A stretch of DNA of 59,044 nt. Origin: Deltaproteobacteria bacterium (GTDB lineage: Bacteria > Desulfobacterota > Desulfobacteria > Desulfobacterales > Desulfatibacillaceae). Below, in pieces: positions 17,801 through 43,642 of the stretch (positions within the stretch are counted from its first letter, which is position 1; every line of letters starts with the position of its first letter). The notes under the pieces are model-generated. The model searched no databases, was not told where the DNA came from, and saw nothing but the letters and a program-made list of their open reading frames with translations. The translations under genes and the position numbers were made by a program. The DNA lies in the NCBI GenBank assembly GCA_016235345.1, contig JACRLG010000029.1, positions 1 through 59,044 of the forward strand, in the 5' to 3' direction.

Positions 17801-19393
17801 GAAGCCCCCGGTATCCGACAGTATGGCCAGCAACCTGTCGTCAGCGAGGCTTGCCGGGATCATGGGGTCGTGGCCGTACCGGATGAAAATCCCCGAACTT
17901 CTGTCATACCTGAAAAGCCCGCTGCCGAAGGTCCCCACCCAAAGATCGCCCCTTGGGTCCTGGTGAAGGAACAGTATCAGTTCCTTTCCGGCTGGCGCTC
18001 CGCTCCTTATGTCAAGGGGAACCTGCCTGAAGGCGCCTTTCTCCCTGTCAAGGATAAGAAGCCCCGCGTCCCACGATCCCACCCACAGCGTTCCTGTGCG
18101 GTCCTCCAGCACCGACGTGGCCATTCCGGCCCTGACTCCACCCTGGGATGCCAGGCGCCGTCCGTAGTTGGTGAATCTGCCGGTCTTCGGATCAAGGCGG
18201 TCCAGCCCGCCGTCTGCCGAGGTTATCCACACCATGCCGGAGGAATCCTCGAACATTCCCCGCATCTTGTTGCCGCCCAGTCCCTGGGTTACCGCCGGAT
18301 TGTAGCGGTAGGGTATGAATTTTATGGCGTTGGGGTCGATCTTGTTGACGCCGTCCGTCATGGTGCCGACCCACAGGGCCCCGGTCCGGTCCTCGCATAT
18401 GCTGATTACGGAGTTTTCCGTGAGGGAATAAGGATTCGCCGGATCGTTTAAGTAGCGCCTGAAGGTTCCAGAGGCCCGGTCCATATGGTTGAGGCCGCCG
18501 CCCCTTGCGCCCACCCAGAGCCGACCCGTCCGGTCTTCGTGTATGAAAGATATGGTGTCGTTGCTTATGCTTGCAGGATTGCCGGGATCGTGTCTGAACC
18601 TCTTGAATTTTTTAGTTTTATTGTCGAAGCGGCAAAGCCCGCCGAGCTGGGTGCCCGCCCACAGGACGCCCGCGCTGTCCGCAAAAAGTGCGACCACCGT
18701 GTTGTTGGAAAGGCTTTCGGGGTCTTCGGGATCATGCCTGAAGGTTTCAAAGGCGCGTTTTTCCGGGTCGAAACGGCAAAGACCTTCATTGGTTCCAGCC
18801 CACAAGCGCCCGTCTTTGTCCCTGCCCAGGGACCTCACCTGGTCGTTGGGCAGGCTCGCCGGGTCATCGGACCTGTGAGTGAAAACCGTGAACCTGCCTG
18901 TTTTGGGGTCGAGAAGAGCCAGGCCTCCAAGCGTGGCCACCCAGAACCGTCCGTCCTTTTCTTCCGCAAGGGCCTGGACGCGGTTTTCGGGAAGACTTTG
19001 CGGGTTTTTCGGGTCGTTTAAAAAGCTGATGAATTTTTCGGTTTTGGGATTGAACAGGCTGAGTCCGCGCCCTGTCCCTATCCACAAAAGCCCGGCCTTG
19101 CTTTCCGTTATGCAGTTGATTACGTTGTAGCTGATGGAGGATTCGTCGTCCGCCCGGTGGGAAAAACTTTTGAACCTGTATCCGTCGTACCTGTAAAGGC
19201 CGCTTTCTGTGCCGAACCACATGTAGCCGTAGCTGTCCTGGAAAACAGAGGAAACCTGCTGGCCGGGCAGCCCGTTTTCGGCGTTTATGCGCTCGAAGGC
19301 CAGGTTGAACTCGTCGGGCTGGCCGGCCGCCAAGGTCAGGGAGGGCGAAAACAGAAAGGCGGCTATGGCAAGGACTGTCAGAACCTTACGCAT
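14822..19393 (-). CDS. Two-component-propeller hybrid histidine kinase with receiver and HPt domains
   Basis: The 1523-residue inner-membrane sensor starts with a signal peptide (MRKVLTVLAIAAFLFSPSLTLA). About 14 two-component-propeller units follow (motifs such as GLWVGT or RLWAGTNEGL, ~35-680), then a Y_Y_Y domain (~735-800) and one membrane helix (WQFRLVIAILFCLFLYGGY, ~808-828). Next come a PAS domain (~880-985), HisKA (FLANMSHEIRTP, phospho-His near 1020), HATPase (~1090-1215), a receiver (VLMDIQMPGMDG, Asp near 1318) and a terminal HPt (AHSIKGLS, His near 1466). This is the layout of periplasmic-ligand sensors related to Bacteroides hybrid systems but with an internal phosphorelay in place of an AraC output. 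The final acceptor could be the convergent response regulator; that link is inferred. Confidence 0.95.
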   Translation of the reverse strand: MRKVLTVLAIAAFLFSPSLTLAAGQPDEFNLAFERINAENGLPGQQVSSVFQDSYGYMWFGTESGLYRYDGYRFKSFSHRADDESSISYNVINCITESKAGLLWIGTGRGLSLFNPKTEKFISFLNDPKNPQSLPENRVQALAEEKDGRFWVATLGGLALLDPKTGRFTVFTHRSDDPASLPNDQVRSLGRDKDGRLWAGTNEGLCRFDPEKRAFETFRHDPEDPESLSNNTVVALFADSAGVLWAGTQLGGLCRFDNKTKKFKRFRHDPGNPASISNDTISFIHEDRTGRLWVGARGGGLNHMDRASGTFRRYLNDPANPYSLTENSVISICEDRTGALWVGTMTDGVNKIDPNAIKFIPYRYNPAVTQGLGGNKMRGMFEDSSGMVWITSADGGLDRLDPKTGRFTNYGRRLASQGGVRAGMATSVLEDRTGTLWVGSWDAGLLILDREKGAFRQVPLDIRSGAPAGKELILFLHQDPRGDLWVGTFGSGLFRYDRSSGIFIRYGHDPMIPASLADDRLLAILSDTGGFLWVSVIGKGVDRFIPESGVFDHFEHRENDPASIRANTIYCMHQDSSGIIWFGTVGGLDRYDPRTCRFSRPDSAEPALNGPIFGILEDDAGNLWLSGNSGLTCYNPKTGYFKTYDRRDGLQASAFAPLSYLKTRNGELYFGGNAGLNRFDPAAIRHNETAPPVVFTDFLLFHKSVGPGRDSVLSSPVGLTEKIVLSHDQSVFSIEFSALNYAVPEKNRFAYILEGYDSRWINTDSQNRLATYTSLHPGKYVFRVRGSNNDGMWNRNGASLSIVITPPWWGTWQFRLVIAILFCLFLYGGYKARVRAVESRNRTLAKKVDERTRDLVSVNTKLTLEIDNHKKTSQALDFERQQFLSIFDASNEIIYVSDPDTYEILYMNKTLRDVMGDAKGMICHRVFQNRETPCDFCTNPMIFGENLGRSHTWEMLNPVAGRWYRCFDKAIRWPDGRMVRYEMAVDIHESKTAQDMLRLAKEKAEEASKEKSRFLANMSHEIRTPMTIIMGMTQLALESELDPRQRECLEPVLDSARSLLNLLNDILDMSKIEANKLEIRQLDFSLPELLESTVKSFRVVADKKGLGLSYSIDRKIPAILSGDPYRLRQVLVNLLGNAVKFTAVGSIELSVRPAPVGGENGGDPSQAPIETLSLLFSVRDTGIGIAPEKHEFIFNQFTQAEEFLTRRHSGTGLGLSISRKLVELMGGAIWIESAPGLGSTFFFTSRFTPGRETENRMPLTETRMQEGLDILVVEDNPVISQMICLFLARAGYRPSTAEDGEAALRFLEENRVELVLMDIQMPGMDGMETTRRLRMAQGWATPHDVPVIALTAHSLKGDRERFLEAGLDDYVAKPVDVPILMKTIAKVMKERLGEPGSQQFSEYADDRVLPAPGAILDREWLLERLGRNLDSLKKVTELFLKTVPARLDALNRAAETGSLEDLRRMAHSIKGLSMQMGASRTKDAAERLERAAEEGDSALAGRLHPALALALAELIDEIAAANE

Positions 19394-26150: not shown

Positions 26151-26226
26151 GCGCTCGTAGCTCAGGGGATAGAGCACCAGCCTCCGGCGCTGGGGGTCGC
26201 AAGTTCGAATCTTGCCGGGCGCACCA
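26151..26226 (+). tRNA. tRNA-Arg (anticodon CCG)
   Basis: The 76 nt cloverleaf includes an encoded CCA. The acceptor GCGCTCG pairs with CGGGCGC; the D-arm is GCTC/GAGC, the anticodon arm CCAGC/GCTGG has loop CTCCGGC (anticodon CCG, reading CGG), and the T-arm GCAAG/CTTGC has loop TTCGAAT. Its 3' end faces a tyrosine integrase gene, so it is the probable attachment site of the element to the right. Confidence 0.97.
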
Positions 26227-26275: not shown

Positions 26276-26459
26276 GCCTTTGTAAAACCAATCGTGCGGG
26301 ACTTTATGCGGGACTTTTTTCAAATGCTGTGTTTCCGGGCCTCCGTTGGCAGTGGTCGCAAGGATACGGTTTATTTTCGAGTGGTTGAAAAGGCCAAACC
26401 CGAAAATATCCGAAAACGACCATCCAACAAAAAGAGTTCCAGAACCGTCCAGCATTTAT

Positions 26460-27509
26460 CTATCCCTTGTGGTTTGCAGCCGCCTCGAAAACGTCCATCG
26501 CGTCCCGTTCGGACTGCCCCAAGCTGTGAAGGTAAATCTCTGTCGTCAAGCGGTTCTCGTGGCCCAGGATGCGCTGGATCGAGCTGACGGGGACGTTATT
26601 CCCCTCCATCAGTGACGCCCCTGAGTGCCGGAAGGCGTGGAACCGGAAGTACGGAACCCCTGCCTTTTTACAAAGCCCCTGCATGATCCGCTTCCGATCC
26701 AGAAACGGGCCTTTGATAATCTCACCCGACTTCTTCTCCCGGTAGGTGTGCCAGAACACCCAAGGAACGCTTTGATCCCGCAAGACCTTCCGACGGGCCA
26801 TGATTACATAGAGCCGACTCGTCAACGGGACTTTGCGGGGCGTCCGGTGGCCGCCCTTCTTCTTCCGGGTGTAAAGCACCAGGAACCGCTTCTCCAGGTC
26901 CACGTCTTCCCAGATCAGGCCATTGATCTCGCTGACGCGGGCCATGGTGTCCCGAAGGGTCCAAAGATAATCCTGGTCGTCGGGGGAAGCTACGGCAATG
27001 ACTTTGTCCAGGTCTTCGGAGTTGGGGACGTACCGGATCGACTTTTCAGCCGGGAAGAAATCAATCCCATCGGTGGGGTTCACCTTTATAATGCTTCGTT
27101 TCTTGGCGAAGTTGAAGGTCGCCCGAAGGCTGCGAAGGTCTTTGTTCGCGGCGGAAGCAGATACGGCTGACAACCTATTTAAAAGGTAGTCTTCCACCAT
27201 GTCCCGGTCAATTTCGTCGGCCTCGAAATCACCCCATGCCCGCCCCCACCTTTTGGCTATGTACAAATATTCCTGATAATGCCGGGGGCAGTTATAGGCC
27301 TTGACGTGATCAAGCCTTAGATTGACCATCTCCAAAAATGCCGTGCCGGTTGATGGGTTTTCCTGGGCGGGGTTCAGGGCCTCCTCTCTTTGTTTTGCCT
27401 CGGCTTTTGAGGCTTGACCCTTTGTCCCGTACCAGGGGCTTGTGTAACGAATCCCCTTCAGGACAAAGTCGAATCTCCATCCCTTCTTTTTGTCCGAATA
27501 AACGCTCAT
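26460..27509 (-). CDS. Tyrosine-type integrase beside tRNA-Arg
   Basis: The 349-residue site-specific recombinase has the catalytic set in the C-terminal half: Arg in MARVSEINGLIW, HAFRHSGASLM (HxxR), GHENRLTTEIYLHS (His and the nucleophilic Tyr). A core-binding domain is seen at ~65-150, and the N-terminal ~60 residues (YSDKKKGWRFDFVLKG) look like an arm-type DNA-binding domain. The frame is open to 27581, but the ATG at 27509 has AAAGGAG 8 bases upstream and is preferred. It would integrate the element into the tRNA-Arg 3' end. Confidence 0.93.
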   Translation of the reverse strand: MSVYSDKKKGWRFDFVLKGIRYTSPWYGTKGQASKAEAKQREEALNPAQENPSTGTAFLEMVNLRLDHVKAYNCPRHYQEYLYIAKRWGRAWGDFEADEIDRDMVEDYLLNRLSAVSASAANKDLRSLRATFNFAKKRSIIKVNPTDGIDFFPAEKSIRYVPNSEDLDKVIAVASPDDQDYLWTLRDTMARVSEINGLIWEDVDLEKRFLVLYTRKKKGGHRTPRKVPLTSRLYVIMARRKVLRDQSVPWVFWHTYREKKSGEIIKGPFLDRKRIMQGLCKKAGVPYFRFHAFRHSGASLMEGNNVPVSSIQRILGHENRLTTEIYLHSLGQSERDAMDVFEAAANHKG

Positions 27510-27699
27510 ATAGGTTCTCCTTTGATGGAAATACCAGAGAACCCCCAAGCCTTCTGCCGCCCACTTCCTGCCAGTGTTCATAAACCCAACTGGTGCTTTT
27601 CTTCAGGAAAAGGGCGACCTCCCTGGGAGTCATTATTTCCAAGTCGGTTTTATTGTCAACTTTTTGATTTTCTGGTTCGTTTTTGTACAATGTGTTCAT
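27310..27699 (-). CDS. Excisionase-like HTH protein overlapping the integrase start
   Basis: This is a 129-residue protein. Residues ~20-65 form an AlpA/Xis-type helix-turn-helix (MTPREVALFLKKSTSWVYEH, then GSLVFPSKENLYERLFG). The remaining ~65 residues are Arg/Lys-rich and are encoded in a different frame over the first 200 bp of the integrase gene. Probable role: DNA bending for excision and repression of int. An internal ATG (before TPREV) with TTGGAAATA upstream is an alternative start. The overlap makes the tail uncertain, but the HTH part is well supported. Confidence 0.7.
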   Translation of the reverse strand: MNTLYKNEPENQKVDNKTDLEIMTPREVALFLKKSTSWVYEHWQEVGGRRLGGSLVFPSKENLYERLFGQKEGMEIRLCPEGDSLHKPLVRDKGSSLKSRGKTKRGGPEPRPGKPINRHGIFGDGQSKA

Positions 27700-27761: not shown

Positions 27762-27884
27762 TGTGCTAAGATAAGCTTTTACATGTCAACCCGAGGTGTG
27801 GAATGATGGCATAACAAGCTTAATTAATTATAATTATAGATATCTATTCTGAATATTCCTACGAAAATCAAACATATCACCCTC

Positions 27885-29255: not shown

Positions 29256-29274
29256 TCAATACTTCCTTTGTGAC

Positions 29275-29610
29275 GAAGTGAGAGGGGTCAAGGACCGTTC
29301 AAAAGGGCTTGAAACGTGTCCGAGTGAGTTTCAGGGTTTGGACGCCAAATTGAGGCTCGTTGGCAAAGCTCCGACACGCGGAAACGGGTTAAGGCTTCAA
29401 AACTACATCTTGTGGTGGCAGTTCTGTTTTTTCCTTTGCCAATTTTGGATTTTCAGGCCACAAGATGTAGTGTCGGGCCAAAAGGTGAGGGGTTCATTTT
29501 CGGATGCCAAATCCCGTTTTCCGGGGTTTGGAAAGCTGTGGGTCAAATCGCGTGTTAATAAAAAGTTTCGGATATGGTTTCTCGGAGCTGAGAGGGGTCA
29601 AGGATCGTTT
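29275..29610. repeat. Pair of ~25 bp direct repeats in the initiator-helicase gap
   Basis: TGAGAGGGGTCAAGGA followed by CCGTT occurs at 29275-29300 and again with TCGTT at 29585-29610, about 310 bp apart, each with a GA(A/G)-type lead-in. They flank a long inverted repeat. The role is unknown; duplicated regulatory or maintenance sites are possible. Confidence 0.6.
29402..29471. repeat. Perfect 14 bp inverted repeat with a 42 bp spacer
   Basis: ACTACATCTTGTGG (29402-29415) and CCACAAGATGTAGT (29458-29471) are exact inverted copies. The spacer is T-rich on the plus strand. It lies in the 437 bp non-coding gap between the DnaB-like gene and the 496-residue gene. Confidence 0.75.
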
Positions 29611-29639
29611 CCAATGGGTAAAGTGGTAATTGGATGAAA

Positions 29640-29683
29640 GGAAAACGCTTCCAGGCCGTTTAGGGGGCTTAGAAGCGTTTTCC
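29640..29683 (-). terminator. Terminator hairpin after the 496-residue gene
   Basis: GGAAAACGCTTC and GAAGCGTTTTCC pair exactly (12 bp) 10 bp after the stop of the minus-strand gene; on that strand the stem is followed by TTTC. Confidence 0.7.
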
Positions 29684-29692
29684 GGGAAAGAT

Positions 29693-31183
29693 TCACACAA
29701 TTGGCTTGAACCGCATTTCGGACAGGGGCGGGAGTTTGTAAAATCGAAGGTCTTCTCGCATGTGCATCCCGCCCGGCCCCCAACCTTCGACGTATTCGAG
29801 GGCCAAGAGGCCATCCAAAATGGCGTTGGTGACAGCTTGGGGGCCGCCGAAGGTGTTGAGCCGCGCGCCAGGGTTTGATTCGCTAATGTAGCGGAGCAGT
29901 TCGGGGATGAGGTATTCTTCGTACATCTTGATTCGCAGGGAGTTGGCTTTCCTGGTTTCCGCAACCCAGTTGGGGTCGGTCCGTGGAATGGTGATCCAGT
30001 TCTCCGGGCAAAGCCTTGGCGAGTCTTCGATGTCGGCCCGGACGATAAGGACTTTCATATTCCCGCCTTCGCTGACCCATCTGGCGTAGGCTGAGTCATC
30101 GTTCGGAGCGAGGTTCTGGAGCGGGGGCCATTGTTGCTCGCGCCAGCCGCCTTTTTCGGGGACCATGATTCCTTTGCTTCTGTAATACTTGAACATCATG
30201 TCCAGGTGGGTTTCGTAGGTGTAGGCTTGTTTATCGGCATATTCGCGGGCTCTGGTATAATCACGTCGGGTTTTGGCCGGAAGCGACCTCATCTCGGCTT
30301 TTGTCGGGAACAGCGCGTTCTTGAAATGCTTCAGCCCGAACTCCCCAGGTTTGACGGTGAGAAGCTGCTTCAGGTAGGCTTTGAGGAACTCGTAATCCCG
30401 TTGCGCGGGTATCATCCTCCAATACTTCGGGTGGCCGCTGTACAGGGCTTCGTCGAAGGCTTCGTCTTCTCTGAACATATCCTCGATTTCGGTATCACCT
30501 GGAGATGCGGGCTTGCGAAACGGAAGCGAGATTCCCTTTTTCGGGGATTTGGAAGGTTTCGAGCTGGCTCCCTTTTTTGGGGGTTCGGGTGACTTAACTT
30601 TTACTACTTCACTCGGAATCAAAACGGGGAACCTTTTTATCGGGGGTGAAAGTAAAGCCATGTTAAACACCAAGTGTTCGGGAACTGTTTCTTCGTTCCC
30701 GAACTTGGATTTGAAAAGGATGGATTCGGAGGTGATTTCTTCTGGAGAAAATGGAGATGGAATTTCTCCCAAAACCTTTCTTTTAAGATTAAATAAATAT
30801 AGGTTTTTGGAGGAACCTAATTCTGAATTAGGTTCGGGAGAATTAGGTTCTGAATTAGGTTCTGAACCTAAGTTAGCCACCTTCGCCGCAAATACCTCCG
30901 AAGTTATGATAAACCTCCGAAATTGCATGATTTCATGTTTAAACGACGGCGGAATCGGGTTTTTCAGGCTGTAGAGGATTTCCCGACCGGTTCCGGCTCC
31001 TTCTCGAACAATAAATGACTTCCAACCAGTGTTTTGAGATAAATCATTCAGCCGTTCTTTTACGGCTGAGATAGTCGTTTTCGGCCTCAGCACCTTCACC
31101 ATTTTTGTTGCATCTTTTGCTGTGACCAGATAAGGTGCTTCGTGAAACAGAGTTAAAAGAAGTGCGCCAAGTTTCAAGCTCAT
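29693..31183 (-). CDS. Putative replication initiator-like phage protein, 496 residues
   Basis: I do not recognise a named family. The N-terminal ~100 residues look like a winged-helix DNA-binding domain (LGALLLTLFHEAPYLVTAKD, then TISAVKERLNDLS). A low-complexity Ser-Glu-Pro-Asn stretch lies at ~105-124, and a Lys/Pro-rich linker (PEPPKKGASSKPSKSPKKG) at ~200-220. The C-terminal ~260 residues are helical with conserved-looking Trp and Tyr. GGAAAGGA precedes the ATG at 31183. Its position directly before the DnaB-like helicase gene, and the iteron-like DNA inside it, are what one expects of an O-type initiator. The functional call is inferred from context. Confidence 0.6.
   Translation of the reverse strand: MSLKLGALLLTLFHEAPYLVTAKDATKMVKVLRPKTTISAVKERLNDLSQNTGWKSFIVREGAGTGREILYSLKNPIPPSFKHEIMQFRRFIITSEVFAAKVANLGSEPNSEPNSPEPNSELGSSKNLYLFNLKRKVLGEIPSPFSPEEITSESILFKSKFGNEETVPEHLVFNMALLSPPIKRFPVLIPSEVVKVKSPEPPKKGASSKPSKSPKKGISLPFRKPASPGDTEIEDMFREDEAFDEALYSGHPKYWRMIPAQRDYEFLKAYLKQLLTVKPGEFGLKHFKNALFPTKAEMRSLPAKTRRDYTRAREYADKQAYTYETHLDMMFKYYRSKGIMVPEKGGWREQQWPPLQNLAPNDDSAYARWVSEGGNMKVLIVRADIEDSPRLCPENWITIPRTDPNWVAETRKANSLRIKMYEEYLIPELLRYISESNPGARLNTFGGPQAVTNAILDGLLALEYVEGWGPGGMHMREDLRFYKLPPLSEMRFKPIV
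30775..30871. other. Candidate replication origin inside the initiator-like gene
   Basis: GAATTAGGTTC occurs three times directly (30825, 30840, 30852). Inverted copies sit at the two ends: a full GAACCTAATTC at 30813 and a partial GAACCTAA at 30864. Immediately to the left is an AT-rich tract (TTTTAAGATTAAATAAATAT, 30781-30800). Iterons next to an AT-rich region within the initiator gene is the arrangement of lambdoid origins. The same bases encode the Ser-Glu-Pro-Asn repeat, so slippage within a coding microrepeat is the alternative. Confidence 0.5.
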
Positions 31184-31213: not shown

Positions 31214-31246
31214 GCGGCAGTCACCGAGTGGGTCGGTGACTGCCGC
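31214..31246 (+). terminator. Perfect hairpin between the helicase and initiator-like genes
   Basis: GCGGCAGTCACCGA pairs exactly with TCGGTGACTGCCGC around a 5-base loop, and ATTTTTATT follows on the plus strand. Both flanking genes run on the minus strand, where no T run follows, so it may act as an attenuator or mRNA-end stabiliser there, or stop antisense transcription. Confidence 0.6.
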
Positions 31247-31264: not shown

Positions 31265-32524
31265 TCAGAAAAACGGGTCAAAGGTTCCGACAAGCTGGAA
31301 AGCTGGCTCGTCGCGGATGATTTTGATACGGGCCAGGGAATGTTTGGCCAGATACCGGTTGGTCAGGTCCGCAAAATCCACGATAAAAACTCGATTTTCC
31401 TTCCCTTCCCCTTTTGGACGCATACCTCGCCCGATTCTCTGAAAATGCCGAATCTGTGACATCCAACCGCCTGCCAGGACAATCGCCGAAAGGGCCGGGA
31501 TGTCGACACCCTCGTCGGTGATCGTCGAACTCACCAAAATGTCGAGGTTGCCGTTCTGGATGTCTGCAAGGGCCTTCTGGCGGGTTTCGATGTCTTTTTT
31601 CCCGTGGATGTAAGTCGAGCGGAATCCGCCATCAATAAACGCTTTCTGTAAAATCTCCCCGTGACGAATTTCATTCACCAAAACCAGAACCTGACACCCT
31701 TTCCGAACCAAGTCGGCGGTTTCGGCTATAATCAGGGCGTTGCGGTGAGGGTTTTCAACGACGCCGTCGCGGTAGGCACTCTGCCACGTCATTGACCGTT
31801 TCATGGCGGCTTGGGTTTCAGATACCCGAACGAACTTGATGAAGGGTTGCGCCAACAATCCCCGGTCGATCAATTCCTGCAAAGTGATTCGGAAGATCAC
31901 CCCGCCTGTAACGGCCATGAGCTGCATATCCTCGATCTCGCCCTTCATCATCGGGGTGGCGGTCAAACCAATCCGATAAAAAGCGTCACAGGCATTACAG
32001 ACGGCCTGGAATGATGCAGTGTCTCCGTGGTGCGCTTCGTCGATGATGAGCATGTCGACGTTATTAAGAAGGTGAAGGACGGCGGGGTCTTTTTTTGCAA
32101 GTCGCCCGGAAAGGGTCTGGATCATCCCGATGTTTGCAGGCTTCATCAGCGGGGATTCTCCGTCACCGAAAATGGCGGCCTCGATCCCAGTGGATTCCCG
32201 GAGCGACTTTTCGGTCTGGTATAGAAGCTCCTGCTTGTGGGTCAGTAAGAGGGTCTTCAACCCTTTGGTGCGGATCGCCCAGTTCATGGCGGCAACGGCG
32301 ATCTTGGTCTTACCCGATCCAGTGGGGGCCTGGACGATTCCGCGAGTGCTGTCGAAAATGGCCTGGACTGCGGCGATTTGATAATCACGAAGGACCGTCC
32401 CGATCAGGCTTTTCTCGATAACAGCATCGGGCGGGGCCGGGGCGGTGTTTGAGTGGTTCCGAATGTCACGCACGGGGACTGAAAACTTCTTCTTCGCCAG
32501 GGCGGTCTGGACGTGGGGGGACAA
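31265..32524 (-). CDS. UvsW-like superfamily 2 helicase, main part (separated from its N-terminus by a frameshift)
   Basis: The 419 residues carry the full SF2 motor: motif I QAPTGSGKT, Ia LLTHKQEL, II DEAHHGD, III IGLTATPM, V SSTITDEGVDIPAL and VI QRIGRGMRPKGEGK. Phage UvsW-type helicases remodel branched DNA and R-loops during replication and repair. The open frame starts at a TTG at 32524, which is not a believable start: LSPHVQTALAKKKFSVPVRD continues smoothly from the upstream 82-residue ORF. See the frameshift at 32515-32520. Confidence 0.88.
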   Translation of the reverse strand: MSPHVQTALAKKKFSVPVRDIRNHSNTAPAPPDAVIEKSLIGTVLRDYQIAAVQAIFDSTRGIVQAPTGSGKTKIAVAAMNWAIRTKGLKTLLLTHKQELLYQTEKSLRESTGIEAAIFGDGESPLMKPANIGMIQTLSGRLAKKDPAVLHLLNNVDMLIIDEAHHGDTASFQAVCNACDAFYRIGLTATPMMKGEIEDMQLMAVTGGVIFRITLQELIDRGLLAQPFIKFVRVSETQAAMKRSMTWQSAYRDGVVENPHRNALIIAETADLVRKGCQVLVLVNEIRHGEILQKAFIDGGFRSTYIHGKKDIETRQKALADIQNGNLDILVSSTITDEGVDIPALSAIVLAGGWMSQIRHFQRIGRGMRPKGEGKENRVFIVDFADLTNRYLAKHSLARIKIIRDEPAFQLVGTFDPFF

Positions 32525-32714
32525 GCCCGGCAGGGAAGGTCCAGCCGGGGCCGGTGAGGAAGCACTTTTTTCCGTCCCATCTTCCGGCTTTATATAATGG
32601 TGAATATTTGGCGCCTGGAACTGCGAAGGTGAGGCTCTTTCTTACTGTGTCGTAAACGAGCCTATCACCAGTTGTCAGGCTCGCTGTTTTGTTCTGGAAA
32701 GTGATTTCATTCAT
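32466..32714 (-). CDS. N-terminal piece of the UvsW-like helicase
   Basis: The 82 residues include KYSPLYKAGRWDGKKCFL and TFPAGL, the small N-terminal domain seen in front of UvsW-type helicases. AAAGGTAGGAA precedes the ATG at 32714. The frame runs 59 bp past the helicase frame start. Removing one C from the six-C run on the minus strand (32515-32520) would give PAGLVPHVQTALAKKKF without interruption, so this and the 31265-32524 frame are one gene split by a +1 shift. Confidence 0.8.
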   Translation of the reverse strand: MNEITFQNKTASLTTGDRLVYDTVRKSLTFAVPGAKYSPLYKAGRWDGKKCFLTGPGWTFPAGLVPPRPDRPGEEEVFSPRA

Positions 32715-33290: not shown

Positions 33291-34570
33291 TCACTGCTGT
33301 CCGGTTAAGAAATCAAAAAAATGGGCCTGAATCATCGAATTGTGTTATAGTGAGTTCACGACAACGCACTGAACACAAAGGAGATTCAGACCCATGGCGC
33401 ACCATAGCACAATCCTTTCGCAACTGCTACAACTTGTTGACAGACATGATTTTCGCCAAATCGAGCAAGCCGGGTTCGCCCCGAAGCGCAAGTACCGCAC
33501 CCTTTCCAGGTGGAGCCAGTTCGTCGCAATGATGTTCGCCCAACTCGGCAACCGCCAGAGCCTGCGGGACATCGAAGGGCATTTCGACGCCCATTCGGCG
33601 AGGCTTTATCACGCAGGCGCAGGCGCGGTCCGTCGTTCGACGCTGGCCGACGCCAACAACGACCGCCCGGCTGAGTATTTCCAGGCCATTTTCGACCGCA
33701 CCTACGCGCGATGCGCCGCCGTGGCCCCCAAAAAGCGGTTCCACTTCAAAAACAAGCTCTATTCATTCGATTCCACCGTGATCGACCTGTGCCTCAGCGT
33801 CTTTCCCTGGGCGTCTTTTCGCAGCACCAAGGGCGGCATCAAGGCCCACACCTTGCTGGACCACGACGGCCTGATCCCGGCCTTCGTCGAAGTCTCGGAC
33901 GCCAAAACAAGCGACATCGAAATCGCGCGCACGCTTTGCCTGCCGCCAGGCTCAATCGTGGCGGTCGACCGCGCCTACACCGACTTCAAATAGTTTGCGC
34001 AGATGGAAAAAAACCACTGTTTTTTCGTCACCCGCCTGAAACGCAACGTCAGTTACCGGATCGTCGAACGCCGCGCCGTCCGCAAAGAAACGGGCCTTAC
34101 GAGCGATCAGACGATCATGCTGGACGGTCCGAAATCGGGGGACTGCCCGATCCCCCTTCGCCGCGTGGGCTATCGCGATCCGCAGACCGGCAAACACTAT
34201 GTTTTCCTGACCAACATCTTCCACCTCTGCGCCAAGACCGTGGCGGACATTTACAAGCAACGCTGGCAGGTGGAGCTTTTTTCAAGTGGATCAAGCAGAA
34301 CTTGCGCATAAAGAGCTTTCTCGGAACCAGCAAAAACGCGGTTCTGACGCAAATCTGGATCGCGATGATCACGGTCCTGCTCCTGGCCTTCTACAAATGG
34401 CGCGCCAAACTCGGACAGTCCATCACCGAGATCTTCAAGTTGCTGCAACTGACCCTGTTCGAACGCCGGAATCTTTATGAACTTTTCGAACCGCCGCCGA
34501 CTCGACAAACCATGGCAACTTGTGGCCAATTATCTTTTGATTTCAACAACTTTTAACCGGACAGCAGTGA
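33291..34570 (+). mobile_element. Degenerate IS4-type insertion sequence
   Basis: The 1280 bp element is bounded by inverted repeats TCACTGCTGTCCGGTTAA (33291) and its complement ending at 34570, which agree across 18 bp, followed by weaker similarity. It contains one transposase gene broken twice. The bases flanking the two ends show no matching target duplication, so it is either old or a product of recombination between two copies. Confidence 0.85.
33394..34556 (+). pseudogene. IS4-family DDE transposase, inactivated by a stop and a frameshift
   Basis: The protein starts MAHHSTILSQLLQLVDRHDF after AAAGGAG. The catalytic residues are still readable: Asp in FDSTVIDL, Asp in VAVDRAYTD, and the IS4 Y-x2-R-x3-E-x6-K signature in YKQRWQVELF(F)K. 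An in-frame TAG at 33991 follows YTDFK (a Trp is usual there, TGG to TAG). A six-T run at 34277-34282 needs one more T to rejoin the frame of KWIKQNLRIKSFLGTSKNA. Full length would be about 385 residues. It is not functional as it stands. Confidence 0.9.
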
Positions 34571-36073: not shown

Positions 36074-36607
36074 CTATTTAACAATTATCAAATTCTTTTT
36101 TACCAATTCCTCTATAGGGAATTGTTTACCACCTGTAACAATTACGTCGACACTCCTGGGCGGCTTATCTAGGTTCCAAAGGTAATTCATTATTTTTCCC
36201 GAGCGATCACAAACGCATCCATGGGTCCAGTCCCCTGCTCTTTCCTTTCCATGAAGGTAGTACCCGTGATCGGTGCCGCTTTGCGGATTCAGTCTGGCGC
36301 GGATACTTCCCCATTCTAATCGGGGATACCCGGTAGTGCCATTACAATTGGCTATTTCCTCAGGCAAGTTTTGTATGCCATAGTAAGGTTTGAGGGCACC
36401 TTCATTATCACACACGGCAGTACCTTCATCGCCTCGAATATCGAGATGAATACGATAGTTGCCATCATCAAGCGGGTGGTTGCCGTTTCCGCCTGAAAAT
36501 GCGGTAACCGTATGAACGACCTTTGTTCCGTTAAAAAGAGTTAGGTCACCAATTAATGCACTTTCGGAGTTCGCTCCTGTTTTATGAAATGTAATTTTTA
36601 ATGCCAT
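36074..36607 (-). CDS. L,D-transpeptidase-like (YkuD-type) protein
   Basis: This is a 177-residue protein. The pattern HG at 119-120 followed by THGC at 128-131 (YYLHGKERAGDWTHGCVCD) corresponds to the YkuD HG...(S/T)HGC(V/I)R catalytic site, with Cys131 as nucleophile and Cys in place of the usual Arg. Such enzymes cross-link or trim peptidoglycan, and small unsecreted versions also serve as interbacterial toxins. No signal peptide is visible (MALKITFHKTGANSES), so export by a dedicated apparatus, or a cytoplasmic role, must be considered. AAAGGAG precedes the ATG. No immunity gene is evident. It is AT-rich compared with the giant genes upstream. Confidence 0.65.
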   Translation of the reverse strand: MALKITFHKTGANSESALIGDLTLFNGTKVVHTVTAFSGGNGNHPLDDGNYRIHLDIRGDEGTAVCDNEGALKPYYGIQNLPEEIANCNGTTGYPRLEWGSIRARLNPQSGTDHGYYLHGKERAGDWTHGCVCDRSGKIMNYLWNLDKPPRSVDVIVTGGKQFPIEELVKKNLIIVK

Positions 36608-37051: not shown

Positions 37052-40000
37052 TCAATCTTGATTCCAATCCAGTTCCCAATTTTTAACCTCCATGATGACG
37101 TCGCCTGAGGCCTCAGCTTTTTCACCTTCATCCCGGGCCAGCGGCGGCGCCTCCCATCGTATGGTAACTGCAACCGAGGTCGTGGGGATGTGCGCTTTGA
37201 TCACGCCCTGAAAGAGCTTGTGGGACTCATTCGCGGGCACGCTCCGATTCGTTCCCAGGGCCCGGCTCATGTACTGGTCCCGCGTGACGTCCGGACGGGC
37301 TTGTCCCGATTCAGTGCCCATGGCGATGGGATGGGTGTCCCTGTCCAGGCGGGAGTATACGATGTTGACCCTGATAGTTTTTTCGGACTCGATCCCACGC
37401 TGGCCTTGCAGCAAAGGGCTCCAGAGGTGGACCCCTTTGTCGGGCTCGCCCGGGGGCTGCATGAAGGGCATGCTGAAGGCCTTTCCCAGCCGGTCTCCCA
37501 AGTCCCTTGCGGTGAGGTCCTCGGGCCCGGCGGCCGCCCATTGCGTAAGCGAGCAGGAGACCTCTCCGTTGATCATGGGGGCGTGGGGCAGCCGCTTGAG
37601 GCCTTCGGGCATGCTCGCGGCCGTATGGGTCACCTTGACGTTCTTGAACTCGGCCCACGCAGAATAGGCGCTCTCCATGAGAAAGCAGGGGTTGATGTCC
37701 GAGTCGCCGTCGTGGTCGATATCCCTGTAGTTGCGAAGGGTGCGAAGCCGCACCCGGTAGTTGAAGGCTGCGTCCAGAAGAAAGGTGAGCCTGAGGACGA
37801 AAAGGGGCTTTTTCCCGAACCCCGTGCCGGACGCCGCCGGCGCCTCGGGCTTCGCTTCCATGAAGCTTGCGCCGATGACGCTCCCGAAGTAGTTATTGGG
37901 GGCCTCCCGCGTGTCCAGGACCAGGTCGCCCTTGTAGCCATCCACGCCCTTGATGAGGGTGTAAATTTGGCGGATCTTGCGCGGCTCCCTGCCATCGGCG
38001 GCCAGCTTTTGCCCTCCGCCCTTCGTTGCCGGAAAAAGTTCGGCGCAGGCGGATCTAAGGCCCTTTTCCAGATCCTCAAGCTTGACCTCGGGCTTTTCGC
38101 CAGCTTGGTCCTGGGTGTCGACCTGTGTTTGCCGCCAGTACTGGAAGGCCGAAACGAGATCCTTCCAGGGCTCGTCCTTGCCATCTCCTGGCCCTGGGGC
38201 TGGGGCCTTTCCCCCGGTATTTTTTTCCCCAATCCACCCATCCCTGGGGTGCTCCTCCACCTCGATGATGAAGCGATCGTTGACGAAGCTTTCAAGCCCT
38301 CCACCGGCGGCAGCCTCCTCGTCGGGCTCCACCAGGAAGTGGCAATGCCCCATGTAGGCATGGCGCTTGATGGAGGCCTCCGCGAGAAAAGCCATGCTGT
38401 CCGACCCAATGAGGGCCGTGGGCACCGTCACGTCGCTTTTTCGCAAAACCCGGCTCACGCCTTCCAGCCTGGGCGGGAGGCCACTGTCGCCGCCCTCCAT
38501 CGAGCGCTTGATAATGTCGTCGATATGGTTCTTGAAATATTCGGTCACGTCATCGTGCCTGGAGTCTTCCGTCCATCCCTTCAGGGAGTGGTAGTCGGCA
38601 GGAAAAAGCTCCACGTTGGTGTTGTCCGGCCTTTCCACGGATTGGGAAGGAGTGCTTTGGGCCACGAGGTTCACGTGCACGGGCGCGCTGGGGGGCAGCC
38701 GGGAAGGCAGGAGGTAAAACTCTTCCCTGGTGTTGGTCGTGGGGTCCTTTATCACCCACTCGGGGTTATGGTGCAGGATTTTCACCCGCATGTCCCTTTC
38801 CTCTGCCTCGGCTGATGGGATCAGTCGGGCGGCTTTTTCGTCCCAGGCCGGGTAGAAGTTCGCCTGCTCCAGGATATCCTCGCCCGAGCGTCCCAGCACT
38901 GTTTGGGGCATGATCTGGAACTCGTTATCGTAGGTCTCGTCGTCCAGGATATCGATGAGGAATCGTTGCTTCGACTCTCCCAGGAAGGAGGTGAAGGTGA
39001 AGCGGTCCATGTCCACCTTGGGCTGGGAGGCCTCATCCTTGCGGCCACTTTCCAACGCGTGCATTCCCGCCTCGTCCTTTGCGCGCTTCCGCGCCACGTC
39101 CTCGACGAGCTTTCCGATCTGCAGGCTGTAAAGCCGGCTGCTGTAGCTGGGTTTCAGGTAACCGTCACCCACCAAGTCCTCGCCGTGGAAGAGGTGGAGG
39201 GCAAAGCCCTTGGCCCGGGAAAACCAGGTGATGTCCTTGGCCAGAATGGCGGCCACGGCCTGTCGGGCCGGCCCGGGATCCCCTTGGCCGCCCAGAGCCC
39301 TGAAGCGGAGGTGCCTGGCGGTATTGAGCCGCATGGGATAGTCGTCGTCGAGTCTTTTGTTTCTTATGCGCTGGGCGAGCCTTTCGCGAAAGCGGTCCTT
39401 GCGCAGCTCCCCCACATTTTCCTCGTCGTCCTCCACCATGGCGAGGAAGTAGTAGGCAAGCCGCTGGGCCACTTCCCGGCGCAGGGTCCTGGCCTTTTCC
39501 TGCCACTGAACGGCATCCAGGGCTGAAAGTCCACACTCTGAGCCTGGAGCCTTGTCTCGACCGGTGATTTCCATTCCAGGGGGCATGCCCCCCCGGCAGA
39601 GCGCTTCCAGCACCTTGAGGCAGAAGCATGCGAAGTCATAGACGGTGCGGTCGTCGGACAGGGCCTTGCGCAGCTTGCCCTGGCCCAGGGCCAGGGGCCG
39701 GAAGGCCAAGGGAACGGTGAAGAGCAGCGTGGACCTGTTCTCCTCCGATGCCATGCCCATGTGCCCGGCCGGTTTCCAGCAGAACGGGGCATGGGGCCCC
39801 AGGAGCTTCGAAAACCTTTCCGGGTCCTTTTCCGGGTTCTGCTCCTCAGCTTTCCCTGGCTCCGGCTTTTTCTCGAACCATGTGAAGCCCTTGCAAAAGG
39901 AGCCTTTGTCAAGGAAGGCCTTGGCCTCGGCATGGGCGATCTTCCTGACCTGGTTGTCCTCGCCGAGGAGAGGGGCGGTCCAGTCCGCCTGGTCCAGCCC

Positions 40001-43000
40001 TCCGGGCAAGGTGACCAGCGAGCTATTTTTGTCCACCACCGCGGGAAAAAGATCGCCGACGGCCACGGTTCTTGCGCCCGTCACCTCGGAGCTTCGGGCG
40101 ATGAAGAGGCCGACCCGCACTATGTTCGCGGTCTTCCCAATCTCCCCGGGCCCGATGGGGACTTTCCCGAGGCTGTTTTCCGTTTCGGTGCTCCAATTCT
40201 CCGTGTTTAAGGTGAACTTGAAATGAAACTTTTCGTCCCAGTGGCTGTTGGCGGTGGCGTCTTTAAGCTTGCCGATGAATCCTTCGTAGCCTGACTGTGT
40301 ACCCTCGGGAGCGGGCTCCAGGAGACCGGCCAGGGCCGCCAAGTCCACGCGGCCGTCCATGGTCTTGTACCGCCGCTTGGAAAGGCGAAGGGAGCCCAGG
40401 AGGCTGGGGTTTTCGTCCGAGCTCCAGGACTGTGCGTCCACCTTGTTCAAGGTGTTGTCGAAGTTCCATTCCTCCAGGACGAGCTCCAGGGCAGAGTTCG
40501 CGCCCTCCGGAAACATGGCCATGAGAGTCTCGTAGGCCTCCCTCAGCCGCGTGACTCCGGCCGTGTCCTCCTGGTCGGCAGCCGTGTCCTTTGCCCGGCC
40601 CTGCTCCACGGCCTTCAGGCACAGCTCGAAGTACTCCTTCTGGAAGTGCAGGCAAAGCTCCTCCTGGCCGTCCCCGGCGGCCTTGAGGGAGAAGATGGCC
40701 ATGGTGAAGCGTTTGCCTACCTCCGGCGTCTCTCCGCTGGTCTCGGGAGGCAGGGGGTTGCCGTGGGCTGCGGCGGGGTGGGGGACCGGGTTGTAGAAGG
40801 GAAGCTTATGGTGGTCGAAGCCCCGGACCAGCATGCGGACCCCGGTCTGATGGTCCAGAAACAGGGAGAAATACCAGGGGGTGGAGGCACGCCGGTGCAC
40901 CGCGTAGCGCCACTTTTCGTTCTTTACAAGCTCCTGGCGCTGGTCCTCCCGGCTTGCCGAGGACTCCAGGCCGAACTCGTGGGTGAAGTCGTAACGGAAC
41001 CGGATTGTGCTCGTATCTGCGGACTCGCACGTATTCGCCAGAAGATGGCCCTTCTGGGTGAGCCTATACCACGAGGCCTGCTCTTCAGTTTCTTTGTGCA
41101 TCCACAGCCAGGCCTTGTTGAAGTTGATGAAGTCGGTCCAGAGGATCGAGACATCCGGGTCTGAGCTGCTTCGATCGAATGTAAGGGAGATGGTGTCCGA
41201 GAGGTGCTCGGTGGACCGGAAAAAATCGAGGATCATGGCCTTTTTGAGAGCGATCACCGCGGCGGGCTCGTCCTTCTCCCCGCTTTGGGCCAGGATCAGG
41301 TTGAAATCCATGTCCGCGCCATCCTGGACCTTGGGCTTGAGAACCAAAAAGGCCAGGGCGCCGGCCGGAAGCCCAGCGCGCCGGAGGGCCGCGGCCGCCC
41401 CGATTTCGCCTCCCCCTGTCCCGTCGCCTCCCTCTCCCGTGGCCGGGGTTGTGCTTTGCAGGGAGGAAAGCCAGTTGGACACTGCCTGGAGCGAGGAACT
41501 TTCCTGTTTATCACCGTGCAGGAGGCCCCGGCCTTCCCCCATGGCCGTTAGCTTGGCCTTACCCAGGGATAGCATGTTCACCTCGGTCACCTTCTTTTCC
41601 GGCTTAGGCGCCGGCTCCGCTGTGCCCTGGGCCGGCTTCGGGGGCTCCGCCATCCACAGAAAGGCCTTGTCAAAGGCCTGGGTTCGGGTTTCGGCCTTCA
41701 GGAAGTCTTCGAAATAGCGCGCCATTCTCTTGGCTTCAACTGCGTCCTGGCCGTCGGTCACCAAGCGGAGGAAAAAGCCTGTCTGGCCGTTATTGAGAAA
41801 GGGCTCGGGGGTGGGCGCCGGGGCCTCGCCTTCACCCGTCCTTTTACCCCTCTCGGGAGGGGCCACCGCCTGGTGGATGATTGTCACCTCCACCTTGAGG
41901 CCCAGCCGGACCATGTTCTTGAAGTCGCCCTTGCCCCACGTGCCCGGGAGGAGCTCGGAGCGGCGCAGGCTTTGCCTCTGGGGCGTGGGCACGCCCAGCA
42001 CCGGATGGCCTTCGCGCGTGTCCAGGTGGGCAGGGGTGAACTTCCCCATCCGCCACAGAGGCGACTCCAGGCGCCCATCCTCCTCCAGGGCGTCCAGGAT
42101 GGACTCCGGCACCTGGAAGGCCTTGTTGTCGCTTCCCTCGGGCTTTTCCGGCGCGTCGCCATAGGGCTGGGCATAGGCCAGCTTGGGCTGGTAACAGACC
42201 GGGCCCGCGCCTTCAGCCTCCGATTCAAGCTTTGTCTCTACCTGGAAACGCTTCTTGGACTCCGGGGAGTATTGGAGGTATTTTTCGCAAGCCTCCCAGT
42301 AGGTTTTAAGGCTCCGGCAAAGCCAGTCGTTCTCCTTCGGATGAGTCTCCCTGGAAAGGATAATTTGTTTTGTATTGATGGAAATTTTCAGTGAAAGATT
42401 ATCCCCATCGAGGATATTCTTGAGATCCGATCCTCTCCATCCCAGGGTCAGGCCCAGGAGCGAAACGGCGGGCACCCATTGGGCATCGTCGCCCTTTTCC
42501 CCGGAGTGCGCCTCGGGGATCCGGAGTATCTTTCCGTCATCATAGAGGGAGGTGCCGTCTTTCACGGGCCACAGGAGCCGCTCCCCGAAGAAGAAGAGGT
42601 TCCGGAGGCCCAGGATTCTGGAGTCCGTCTTTAGCAGTTCCTTCGCATGGGAATCTTCGGTGGGCTTGGGGATGCGCCCGAGCTGTGCCGCCAAGCCCTC
42701 CCACATCACCCGGGCATAGGGCTTGTCCTTGTTTTCGTCGAAGAGCTCCCGAGCGTGGCCTGTCATCTCCTTGGACCCGTACTCCACGCGCTCGGGCAGG
42801 AGCCGCTCCATCTCTTGGCCGTCCACCGGCCATTTCGGAATGCTGATGGAGTGCTTCTCGTTTATCAGCCACCTGGCGATGCTCAGGACGTTTCCTGCGT
42901 CGTCCATGTCACCGGTGCCGTCGATGTCCCCCACGTCGTCGAAGTTCCATTTATCATCCAGCCCTGCCGAGTTTCGGATATCCAAGGTTTCGCACACGTA

Positions 43001-43642
43001 TCTGAGGGCCGTCAATAGGTTCCCTTCCACGCCGTCTGGAAAGCCTTTGTCCAGGTGCAGGCGCAGGAGGGCCCGGGCCCAGTGCAGCAGCTCCAAAAGC
43101 TGCAGGCGGGTGTAGACGCGTTTGGCTGGCTCCGAATCCCAGGTCCAGGGCCCGATCCCATCGGTTTCCGATGAGAAGCGGAAGGGCTTGACCAGCCTGA
43201 GGTTGTTGTCGATCCAGAACTTGGCCCATTGGCCGGGGTCGGGGGAGAATGCCATGTCGCCGACCGTGCGGTTCACTGTTTTTTCCCCCGCGGAGGAGCT
43301 GAGCGTGGCCGTGATCTCCGTGTCCGGGGCCAGGGGCACGGGGACCCAGAGGTTGTGCTCTCCGTTGGGTTCCGCGCTCCAGTCCGGGGGGGCCTCCCCC
43401 TCGTTCTTGCCGGGCACCGGGGCCACCTCGTAGATCCACGCTGACTGATTCTGGAAATAGTCCCAGGGCCAGGGCGAGCGATTGTCGTCAGCGAGAAAAG
43501 GCACTACGGTCAGGTGTACATGGAGATCTTCCGGCGTGCTTTTTGCCAGGGCTGGCTCTCCTTTGGCGTTCTTGAAGCCGGCCAGGAGGATCTCCGGGCA
43601 CAGAATCTCCGGGTTGATGAACACGATCCTGCCGTTTCCCAT
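37052..43642 (-). CDS. Giant protein of unknown function, 2196 residues
   Basis: I do not recognise a family. It starts MGNGRIVFINPEILCPEILL, without signal peptide or membrane helix. The N-terminal part is rich in Trp and Pro (SPWPWDYFQNQSAWIYEV). A dockerin/EF-hand-like segment (VGDIDGTGDMDDAGNVLSI) lies at ~232-250, and a second Ca-site-like motif (DIDHDGDSDINP) near 1975. A Gly/Thr-rich linker (TPATGEGGDGTGGGEIGA) sits near 735. Predicted content is mixed alpha/beta with many charged loops. It is the third and last gene of an apparent operon, 70 bp after the 1950-residue gene. Size, Ca-binding-like motifs and the secreted partner suggest a large structural or surface assembly; this is inference only. 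Confidence 0.85.
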   Translation of the reverse strand: MGNGRIVFINPEILCPEILLAGFKNAKGEPALAKSTPEDLHVHLTVVPFLADDNRSPWPWDYFQNQSAWIYEVAPVPGKNEGEAPPDWSAEPNGEHNLWVPVPLAPDTEITATLSSSAGEKTVNRTVGDMAFSPDPGQWAKFWIDNNLRLVKPFRFSSETDGIGPWTWDSEPAKRVYTRLQLLELLHWARALLRLHLDKGFPDGVEGNLLTALRYVCETLDIRNSAGLDDKWNFDDVGDIDGTGDMDDAGNVLSIARWLINEKHSISIPKWPVDGQEMERLLPERVEYGSKEMTGHARELFDENKDKPYARVMWEGLAAQLGRIPKPTEDSHAKELLKTDSRILGLRNLFFFGERLLWPVKDGTSLYDDGKILRIPEAHSGEKGDDAQWVPAVSLLGLTLGWRGSDLKNILDGDNLSLKISINTKQIILSRETHPKENDWLCRSLKTYWEACEKYLQYSPESKKRFQVETKLESEAEGAGPVCYQPKLAYAQPYGDAPEKPEGSDNKAFQVPESILDALEEDGRLESPLWRMGKFTPAHLDTREGHPVLGVPTPQRQSLRRSELLPGTWGKGDFKNMVRLGLKVEVTIIHQAVAPPERGKRTGEGEAPAPTPEPFLNNGQTGFFLRLVTDGQDAVEAKRMARYFEDFLKAETRTQAFDKAFLWMAEPPKPAQGTAEPAPKPEKKVTEVNMLSLGKAKLTAMGEGRGLLHGDKQESSSLQAVSNWLSSLQSTTPATGEGGDGTGGGEIGAAAALRRAGLPAGALAFLVLKPKVQDGADMDFNLILAQSGEKDEPAAVIALKKAMILDFFRSTEHLSDTISLTFDRSSSDPDVSILWTDFINFNKAWLWMHKETEEQASWYRLTQKGHLLANTCESADTSTIRFRYDFTHEFGLESSASREDQRQELVKNEKWRYAVHRRASTPWYFSLFLDHQTGVRMLVRGFDHHKLPFYNPVPHPAAAHGNPLPPETSGETPEVGKRFTMAIFSLKAAGDGQEELCLHFQKEYFELCLKAVEQGRAKDTAADQEDTAGVTRLREAYETLMAMFPEGANSALELVLEEWNFDNTLNKVDAQSWSSDENPSLLGSLRLSKRRYKTMDGRVDLAALAGLLEPAPEGTQSGYEGFIGKLKDATANSHWDEKFHFKFTLNTENWSTETENSLGKVPIGPGEIGKTANIVRVGLFIARSSEVTGARTVAVGDLFPAVVDKNSSLVTLPGGLDQADWTAPLLGEDNQVRKIAHAEAKAFLDKGSFCKGFTWFEKKPEPGKAEEQNPEKDPERFSKLLGPHAPFCWKPAGHMGMASEENRSTLLFTVPLAFRPLALGQGKLRKALSDDRTVYDFACFCLKVLEALCRGGMPPGMEITGRDKAPGSECGLSALDAVQWQEKARTLRREVAQRLAYYFLAMVEDDEENVGELRKDRFRERLAQRIRNKRLDDDYPMRLNTARHLRFRALGGQGDPGPARQAVAAILAKDITWFSRAKGFALHLFHGEDLVGDGYLKPSYSSRLYSLQIGKLVEDVARKRAKDEAGMHALESGRKDEASQPKVDMDRFTFTSFLGESKQRFLIDILDDETYDNEFQIMPQTVLGRSGEDILEQANFYPAWDEKAARLIPSAEAEERDMRVKILHHNPEWVIKDPTTNTREEFYLLPSRLPPSAPVHVNLVAQSTPSQSVERPDNTNVELFPADYHSLKGWTEDSRHDDVTEYFKNHIDDIIKRSMEGGDSGLPPRLEGVSRVLRKSDVTVPTALIGSDSMAFLAEASIKRHAYMGHCHFLVEPDEEAAAGGGLESFVNDRFIIEVEEHPRDGWIGEKNTGGKAPAPGPGDGKDEPWKDLVSAFQYWRQTQVDTQDQAGEKPEVKLEDLEKGLRSACAELFPATKGGGQKLAADGREPRKIRQIYTLIKGVDGYKGDLVLDTREAPNNYFGSVIGASFMEAKPEAPAASGTGFGKKPLFVLRLTFLLDAAFNYRVRLRTLRNYRDIDHDGDSDINPCFLMESAYSAWAEFKNVKVTHTAASMPEGLKRLPHAPMINGEVSCSLTQWAAAGPEDLTARDLGDRLGKAFSMPFMQPPGEPDKGVHLWSPLLQGQRGIESEKTIRVNIVYSRLDRDTHPIAMGTESGQARPDVTRDQYMSRALGTNRSVPANESHKLFQGVIKAHIPTTSVAVTIRWEAPPLARDEGEKAEASGDVIMEVKNWELDWNQD

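Follow-up and report, generated by a model that had tools for sequence, protein, structure and literature searches.

By the account in PMC7466680, the replication origin of phage lambda, with its iterons and AT-rich tract, is located in the middle of the O gene. For phage SPP1, PMC6316719 outlines an origin, oriL, in gene 38; this gene, which encodes the origin-binding protein, contains direct repeats and an AT-rich unwinding element. The phage also encodes a DnaB-family helicase and a separate loader, gp39, and has a second origin, oriR. In the RepA_N plasmid pSK41, as summarized in PMC5703833, four Rep boxes lie centrally in rep and are bound by the winged-helix N-terminal domain of Rep, and the origin sequence encodes the linker of this protein.

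Here, we describe a comparable arrangement in the gene of a 496-residue protein. The window, i.e., the whole stretch of DNA that was analyzed, is 59,044 nucleotides long, and its relevant features are listed in Table 1. While the iterons of lambda O occupy codons 117 to 145, the repeats and the AT-rich tract of this locus together occupy codons 104 to 138. The annotated origin in P22 gene 18, which begins at about codon 118, is also intragenic. The gene next door is on the helicase side in all three cases: it is P in lambda, the DnaB-like gene 12 in P22, and a DnaB-like helicase gene here. However, lambda has four 18-bp iterons, whereas this locus has 11-bp units at 12- to 15-bp spacing, three of them direct and two inverted. 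Compared by description only, SPP1 oriL is similar in its intragenic repeats and AT-rich tract and in the phage's own DnaB-family helicase; as outlined for that phage, the separate loader gp39 and the second origin oriR are differences. As described, pSK41 is similar in that the repeats are inside the gene and the origin sequence codes for a linker.

Table 1. Features in and around the repeat-bearing gene (positions in the window)
Feature	Position	Strand	Basis or remark
tRNA-Arg (CCG), likely integration target	26151..26226	+	
Tyrosine integrase	26460..27581	-	PF00589 E 1.3e-19; tRNA adjoins 12/16 relatives
Small ORF before integrase, possible HTH excisionase	27310..27699	-	HTH_17 E 0.15 only
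DnaB-like replicative helicase, phage-type, 456 aa	27885..29255	-	phrog_19 E 1.7e-55; PF03796 E 4.7e-18
Structured noncoding gap separating the proposed initiator gene from the DnaB-like helicase gene	29256..29692	-	folding, repeats
496-aa orphan protein, proposed initiator	29693..31183	-	contains the repeats (codons 104-126) and the AT tract (within 126-138)
AT-rich tract, candidate DNA unwinding element	30781..30806		low stability; AT excess over synonymous expectation
Iteron copy R1	30813..30823	-	GAATTAGGTTC on minus strand, exact
Iteron copy F1	30825..30835	+	exact
Iteron copy F2	30840..30850	+	exact
Iteron copy F3	30852..30862	+	exact
Degenerate inverted copy R2	30864..30874	-	2/11 mismatches; exact across GAACCTAA
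UvsW-like helicase body, 419 aa	31265..32524	-	phrog_16 E 3.6e-82; PF04851 E 5.8e-25
UvsW N-terminal domain, other frame than helicase body	32466..32714	-	PF21241 E 9.9e-6
IS-type transposase, overlapping frames (first DUF4372/DDE)	33394..34556	+	

The array contains three exact direct copies of GAATTAGGTTC on the plus strand, and its unit starts are spaced 12, 15, 12, and 12 bp. R1 and F1 together form a perfect 23-bp dyad with a 1-nt center, and R2 and F3 form the dyad TTAGGTTC-T-GAACCTAA, which is also perfect and odd-centered and spans 17 bp. The first-pass annotation had described three direct copies with inverted copies at both edges. The direct copies and one inverted copy were found to be exact, but the inverted copy at the other edge has two mismatches. 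In the whole genome (4,011,554 bases), the exact 11-mer is present four times, all inside one 50-bp cluster, while the reversed pattern, used as a control, has 0 matches. With up to one mismatch, there are four matches to the unit in the 59-kb window compared to a shuffle mean of 0.99, and at least four such matches anywhere in the 59 kb were obtained in 2 of 100 window shuffles. Since the count alone gives a weaker signal, the case for the array rests on its clustering and on the codon test described below. Allowing two mismatches revealed no further copy in the element; three others are located in the window at 7.7, 48.4, and 55.3 kb. In IMG/VR, a 20-base portion of the array had a match (L040) that was rejected, since it is an isolated stretch of AT-rich DNA within a long tape-measure-like gene and has neither the array nor its context.

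On the coding strand, the array encodes NLGSEPNSEPNSPEPNSELGSSK and reads LGS-EPNS-EPNS-P-EPNS-ELGS. EPNS arises from the forward copies, and ELGS and LGS arise from inverted copies of the same 11-mer. Thus, the low-complexity Ser-Glu-Pro-Asn insert proposed earlier is present in the forward copies (as Glu-Pro-Asn-Ser) but not in the inverted ones (Glu-Leu-Gly-Ser and Leu-Gly-Ser). The three EPNS copies have identical codons up to the last wobble base, and CCT, AAT, TTA, and GGT, which are rare in the element, are used throughout the array. Different codons for the same peptide, which according to the first-pass annotation would point to a mere coding microrepeat, are therefore absent, and the inverted copies encode another peptide. 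We resampled synonymous codons with the peptide fixed, using the codon usage of four element genes with the array left out. None of 200,000 resamples reached four copies of the unit and two reached three, in a test that assumes independent codons and that a recent duplication with template switching would escape. In the same resamples, the direct 9-mer repeat count was reached or exceeded in 171 cases and the inverted count in 36, but never both together. With the gene's own local codon usage (codons 1 to 95 and 146 to 228), 0 of 100,000 resamples reached four copies, and none had more than two. Because the forward and inverted copies encode different peptides and codon resampling never yields the array, we conclude that the array is a DNA feature, with constraint at the DNA rather than the peptide level.

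The same principle was applied as a scan in 33-codon windows, in which direct plus inverted 8-mer pairs were scored. The 496-residue gene scored 37 at codons 94 to 126 (resample maximum, 17; 0/200). The positive controls lambda O and P22 gene 18 scored 17 and 15, respectively, both at codons 112 to 144 (resample maxima, 9 and 6; 0/500 each), and both peaks fall at the annotated origins. The scan passed over lambda P, P22 gene 12, and three SPO1-type genes (455, 396, 271, 270, and 68 of 500 resamples). The remaining 22 genes of the window scored 10 or less. A score of 10 was reached at 37052-43642 (0/60 resamples equal or higher), 3673-6024 (1/200), and 14822-19393 (2/60). In the compared loci, two of 671 ORFs scored at least 12, and scores at least as high were obtained in 12 and 140, respectively, of 300 resamples; for no ORF among the 671 was a high score also a rare one in the resamples. 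The integrase loci contributed 62 ORFs, of which two scored at least 8: the end of an integrase gene (score 8; 5/500) and an antisense ORF over the end of another (score 16; 1/500). For the sets of 671 and 62 ORFs, the longest nonoverlapping ORFs served as gene stand-ins. The scan is thus not perfectly clean, since some window genes and one integrase-locus antisense ORF are also rare under resampling.

Along the coding strand, about 100 codons are followed by the repeats and then by the AT-rich tract. The analysis confirmed the previously noted presence of such a tract beside the repeats inside the gene: TTTTAAGATTAAATAAATAT is located at 30781-30800, has low duplex stability, and is part of an AT-rich run that extends beyond it. 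Among the 20-bp sites of the window, it ranks second in instability, with only 10 of 59,024 20-step windows being less stable, all of them at an intergenic site at 27.8 kb. This site (27810-27845), an AT-rich spot flanked by the DnaB-like gene and the small ORF preceding the integrase gene, is the least stable in the 59-kb window. Among distinct sites, the tract ranks third, seventh, and fourth when 27, 40, and 60 steps are used, respectively. Its AT content also exceeds the synonymous expectation. For codons 126 to 138, it was reached by 7 of 20,000 resamples with element codon usage, and the excess was modest with local usage (253/20,000); for codons 126 to 150, the corresponding numbers were 0 and 7 of 20,000. 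The consensus of the DnaA box is TTWTNCACA, and no exact match to it was detected within 26 to 38 kb. Two IHF-consensus matches are present in the same region, both distant from the array.

In agreement with the first-pass annotation, the 496-residue protein is not a recognized initiator: it has no match in Pfam (E up to 5), PHROGs, or NCBIfam. Because there is no family match, the label "initiator" rests on position. Among PDB sequences, a single match was obtained (E 1.8). The protein matches neither PF04492 (Phage_rep_O) nor an O-like PHROG, both of which were recovered for the controls lambda O and P22 18, and the RepA_N family PF06970 was not matched either. By tblastn (E up to 1), no match was found in the plasmid collection and nothing usable in phages. 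Homologue searches in IMG/VR and GTDB contigs, which reach close relatives only, and across overlapping sets of 96, 389, 395, and 389 genomes yielded nothing usable. There was no homologue in the best 80 of 561 IMG/VR loci with DnaB relatives, nor in 16 integrase and 8 helicase loci. A genome search with E up to 0.01 gave matches in eight other genomes (E 0.002 to 0.006; at most 61 residues; 15.8 to 18.6 bits), seven of which belong to one genus and match in the same stretch of an approximately 800-aa frame; the eighth is L008. We took the seven matches in one genus to be due to chance; by eye, two of them resemble penicillin-binding protein. The family phrog_1098, considered for the 496-residue gene, was dismissed, as it does not match this gene. 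Structure models made without an alignment had pLDDT values of 39.5 and 44.3, and the second contains helices at residues 4 to 15, 22 to 32, and 38 to 52. With this low-confidence model, the best Foldseek match had an E of 2.6, and weak matches to Fur/PerR winged-helix proteins were found among calmodulin-like ones. Inspection by eye together with the low-confidence models suggests that residues 1 to 75 may form a winged helix.

Read along the minus strand, the element comprises genes for a YkuD-like protein and a membrane-like protein, the IS, and then the genes for the UvsW-like helicase, the 496-residue protein, and the DnaB-like helicase. The repeat-bearing gene indeed adjoins a DnaB-like helicase gene, as proposed, with matches to phrog_19 and PF03796. 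The IS separates the replication module from the remaining element genes. The UvsW-like gene (31265-32714) is in two frames and may be broken or shifted. The YkuD-like gene (36074-36607) has a weak L,D-transpeptidase (YkuD) match below the cutoff and an HG...THGC motif recognized by eye, and it occupies the place of the lysis genes in SPO1. In the 437-bp gap downstream of the 496-residue gene, which has a single copy in the genome, a perfect 14-bp inverted repeat (29402/29458), an 18-bp inverted repeat (29640/29666), and a 21-bp direct repeat (29279/29589) are present, and the RNA fold of 29256-29700 has a z of -4.4 (0/100 shuffles). Between two minus-strand genes, at 31214-31246, the plus strand has a strong 14-pair hairpin and then a T-rich stretch; a plus-strand gene that it could end is not evident there.

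The integrase has 16 relatives, which are found in Magnetococcales, Acidobacteria, Desulfobacteraceae, and others. Their loci (L138-L153) are from several phyla and have varied neighbors, and in 12 of the 16, a tRNA for Arg, Lys, Met, Thr, Asp/Val, or Ala is present. The small ORF preceding the integrase ends inside the integrase ORF, which is in a different frame, and relatives of this small ORF (E below 1e-20) are at the same place in 8 of the 16 loci. Because neither the 496-residue protein nor the DnaB-like gene was found in the 16 loci, some of which hold little element-side DNA, the cargo of the elements appears to differ. Between the tRNA and the integrase stop, a tandem TGCGGGACTTTA pair (26295-26317) may represent arm-type sites; in L139 and L143, too, there are repeats overlapping the end of the integrase. 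No second attachment site was detected within the window; a second copy of the tRNA end was rejected as a candidate, since it belongs to another tRNA-Arg. In Rfam, only tRNA scored above the gathering score. DnaB matches in 189 of 389 genomes appeared to be host DnaB, judged by length, and were not used. Given the IS between the genes, the UvsW-like gene in two frames, and the lack of a second attachment site in the window, the element looks decayed. It is likely a prophage-like, IS-disrupted remnant beside tRNA-Arg.

The gene order was compared to that of phages. In SPO1, whose type belongs to the Herelleviridae, the annotated order is holin, endolysin, holin, and then the early module of helicase (19.5), gp20.1, and DnaB-like gp21.1. 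A helicase gene, an intervening gene, and a DnaB-like gene follow each other in this element, SPO1, EalM-132, and Goe26, in which genes of this module are annotated as dbpA and radA. LysYB1 has a similar order, but with small genes between the helicase gene and the intervening gene. The intervening gene product of LysYB1 has weak matches to replication-initiation PHROGs at the N terminus, and that of Goe26 has N-terminal, subcutoff matches to HTH and RP-C Pfam families; those of SPO1 and EalM-132 are shorter and lack this N-terminal part. Homology of the 496-residue protein to the gp20.1-slot proteins was rejected, since hhalign gave a score of 12.4, compared to 19.2 to 26.9 for the ten best of 60 shuffles. 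The family profiles of SPO1 gp20.1 (phrog_14232/phrog_1098) revealed no similarity to the protein either, and the three gp20.1-slot genes tested have no such intragenic repeats. The gene order is absent in six other phages with a related DnaB (BUCTxx99, RHEph10, SSU5, RHph_N1_10, Mel-JY01, and Nican01), in four of which a primase is encoded directly downstream. Since the SPO1-type phages share the order and these six lack it, it is shared with one phage group and is not general. Literature searches on the replication genes of SPO1 yielded nothing of use, and no report of this case was seen in searches of open-access papers for intragenic origins.

Perfect odd-centered dyads are typical of operators, and the units form two of them (23 bp and 17 bp). 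The array could accordingly be a regulatory operator, at which a repressor or the 496-residue protein binds the dyads and controls transcription of the replication genes, and not a start site; some initiators also autoregulate. However, the array is located over 300 bp into the gene and has no further copy elsewhere in the element, and an operator alone would leave the adjoining AT-rich tract unexplained. We consider this explanation unlikely. The array might also be a coding microrepeat, in which slippage and hairpin-templated duplication gave rise to a peptide linker and the DNA as such has no function. Linkers tolerate repeats, and the direct copies do yield a tandem EPNS peptide. No homologue of the array, which is unique, is known, and the outcome of codon resampling is compatible with a recent mutational expansion. 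Nevertheless, one inverted copy keeps the 11-mer exact although it encodes a different peptide, element-rare codons recur throughout, the combination of a high scan score and rarity is seen in none of the 671 other ORFs, and the neighboring tract is AT-rich at synonymous sites, too. These points make a microrepeat improbable.

Short direct and inverted sites also occur at partition sites. When the plus strand of the array was folded as DNA, two stable hairpins were obtained (MFE -16.3; z -6.2; 0/200 shuffles), in line with a recombination, partition, or single-strand hairpin site, such as a centromere or a resolution site. But no partition or resolvase gene was recognized among the element proteins scanned, and the location inside a gene between two helicase genes argues against such a role, which we regard as very improbable.

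The reading that we favor is that the array and the AT-rich tract constitute an intragenic theta-type origin, that the 496-residue protein is its initiator, and that both belong to a phage-derived integrative element; on the comparisons made here, this is probably correct. In this mechanism, the N-terminal domain of the protein would bind the 11-bp units, and the resulting nucleoprotein complex would open the AT-rich tract. The DnaB-like helicase, encoded just downstream, would then be recruited to the opened origin, and the element would replicate after its excision. The origin sequence would at the same time code for the linker that follows the N-terminal domain. The lambda-type origin proposed in the first-pass annotation agrees with the position, the codon tests, the low stability, and the SPO1-type gene order, but not with the unit length, the inverted copies, and the protein family. 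By this comparison, the locus likely works like the lambda O and RepA_N origins, although the protein belongs to neither of these families. The architecture is therefore already known, but the initiator would be unrelated to the described families.

Possibly, although we put this forward only tentatively, the 496-residue protein is the founding member of a new family of initiators, and an SPO1-like helicase/initiator/helicase module, whose origin of short units in both orientations lies in the initiator's own gene, was captured by a tRNA-integrating element. To our knowledge, for most phages and integrative elements whose hosts are not model organisms, the origin has yet to be mapped. The scan needed no knowledge of protein families to pick out the origins of lambda and P22, and here, it indicates an origin in an orphan gene. 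It thus offers a route to initiator/origin pairs where homology fails. If binding to the units holds, one more unrelated protein would have its origin inside its own linker. Were the protein to found such a new family, intragenic origins would have evolved once more, separately from those of lambda O, SPP1 gp38, and RepA_N.
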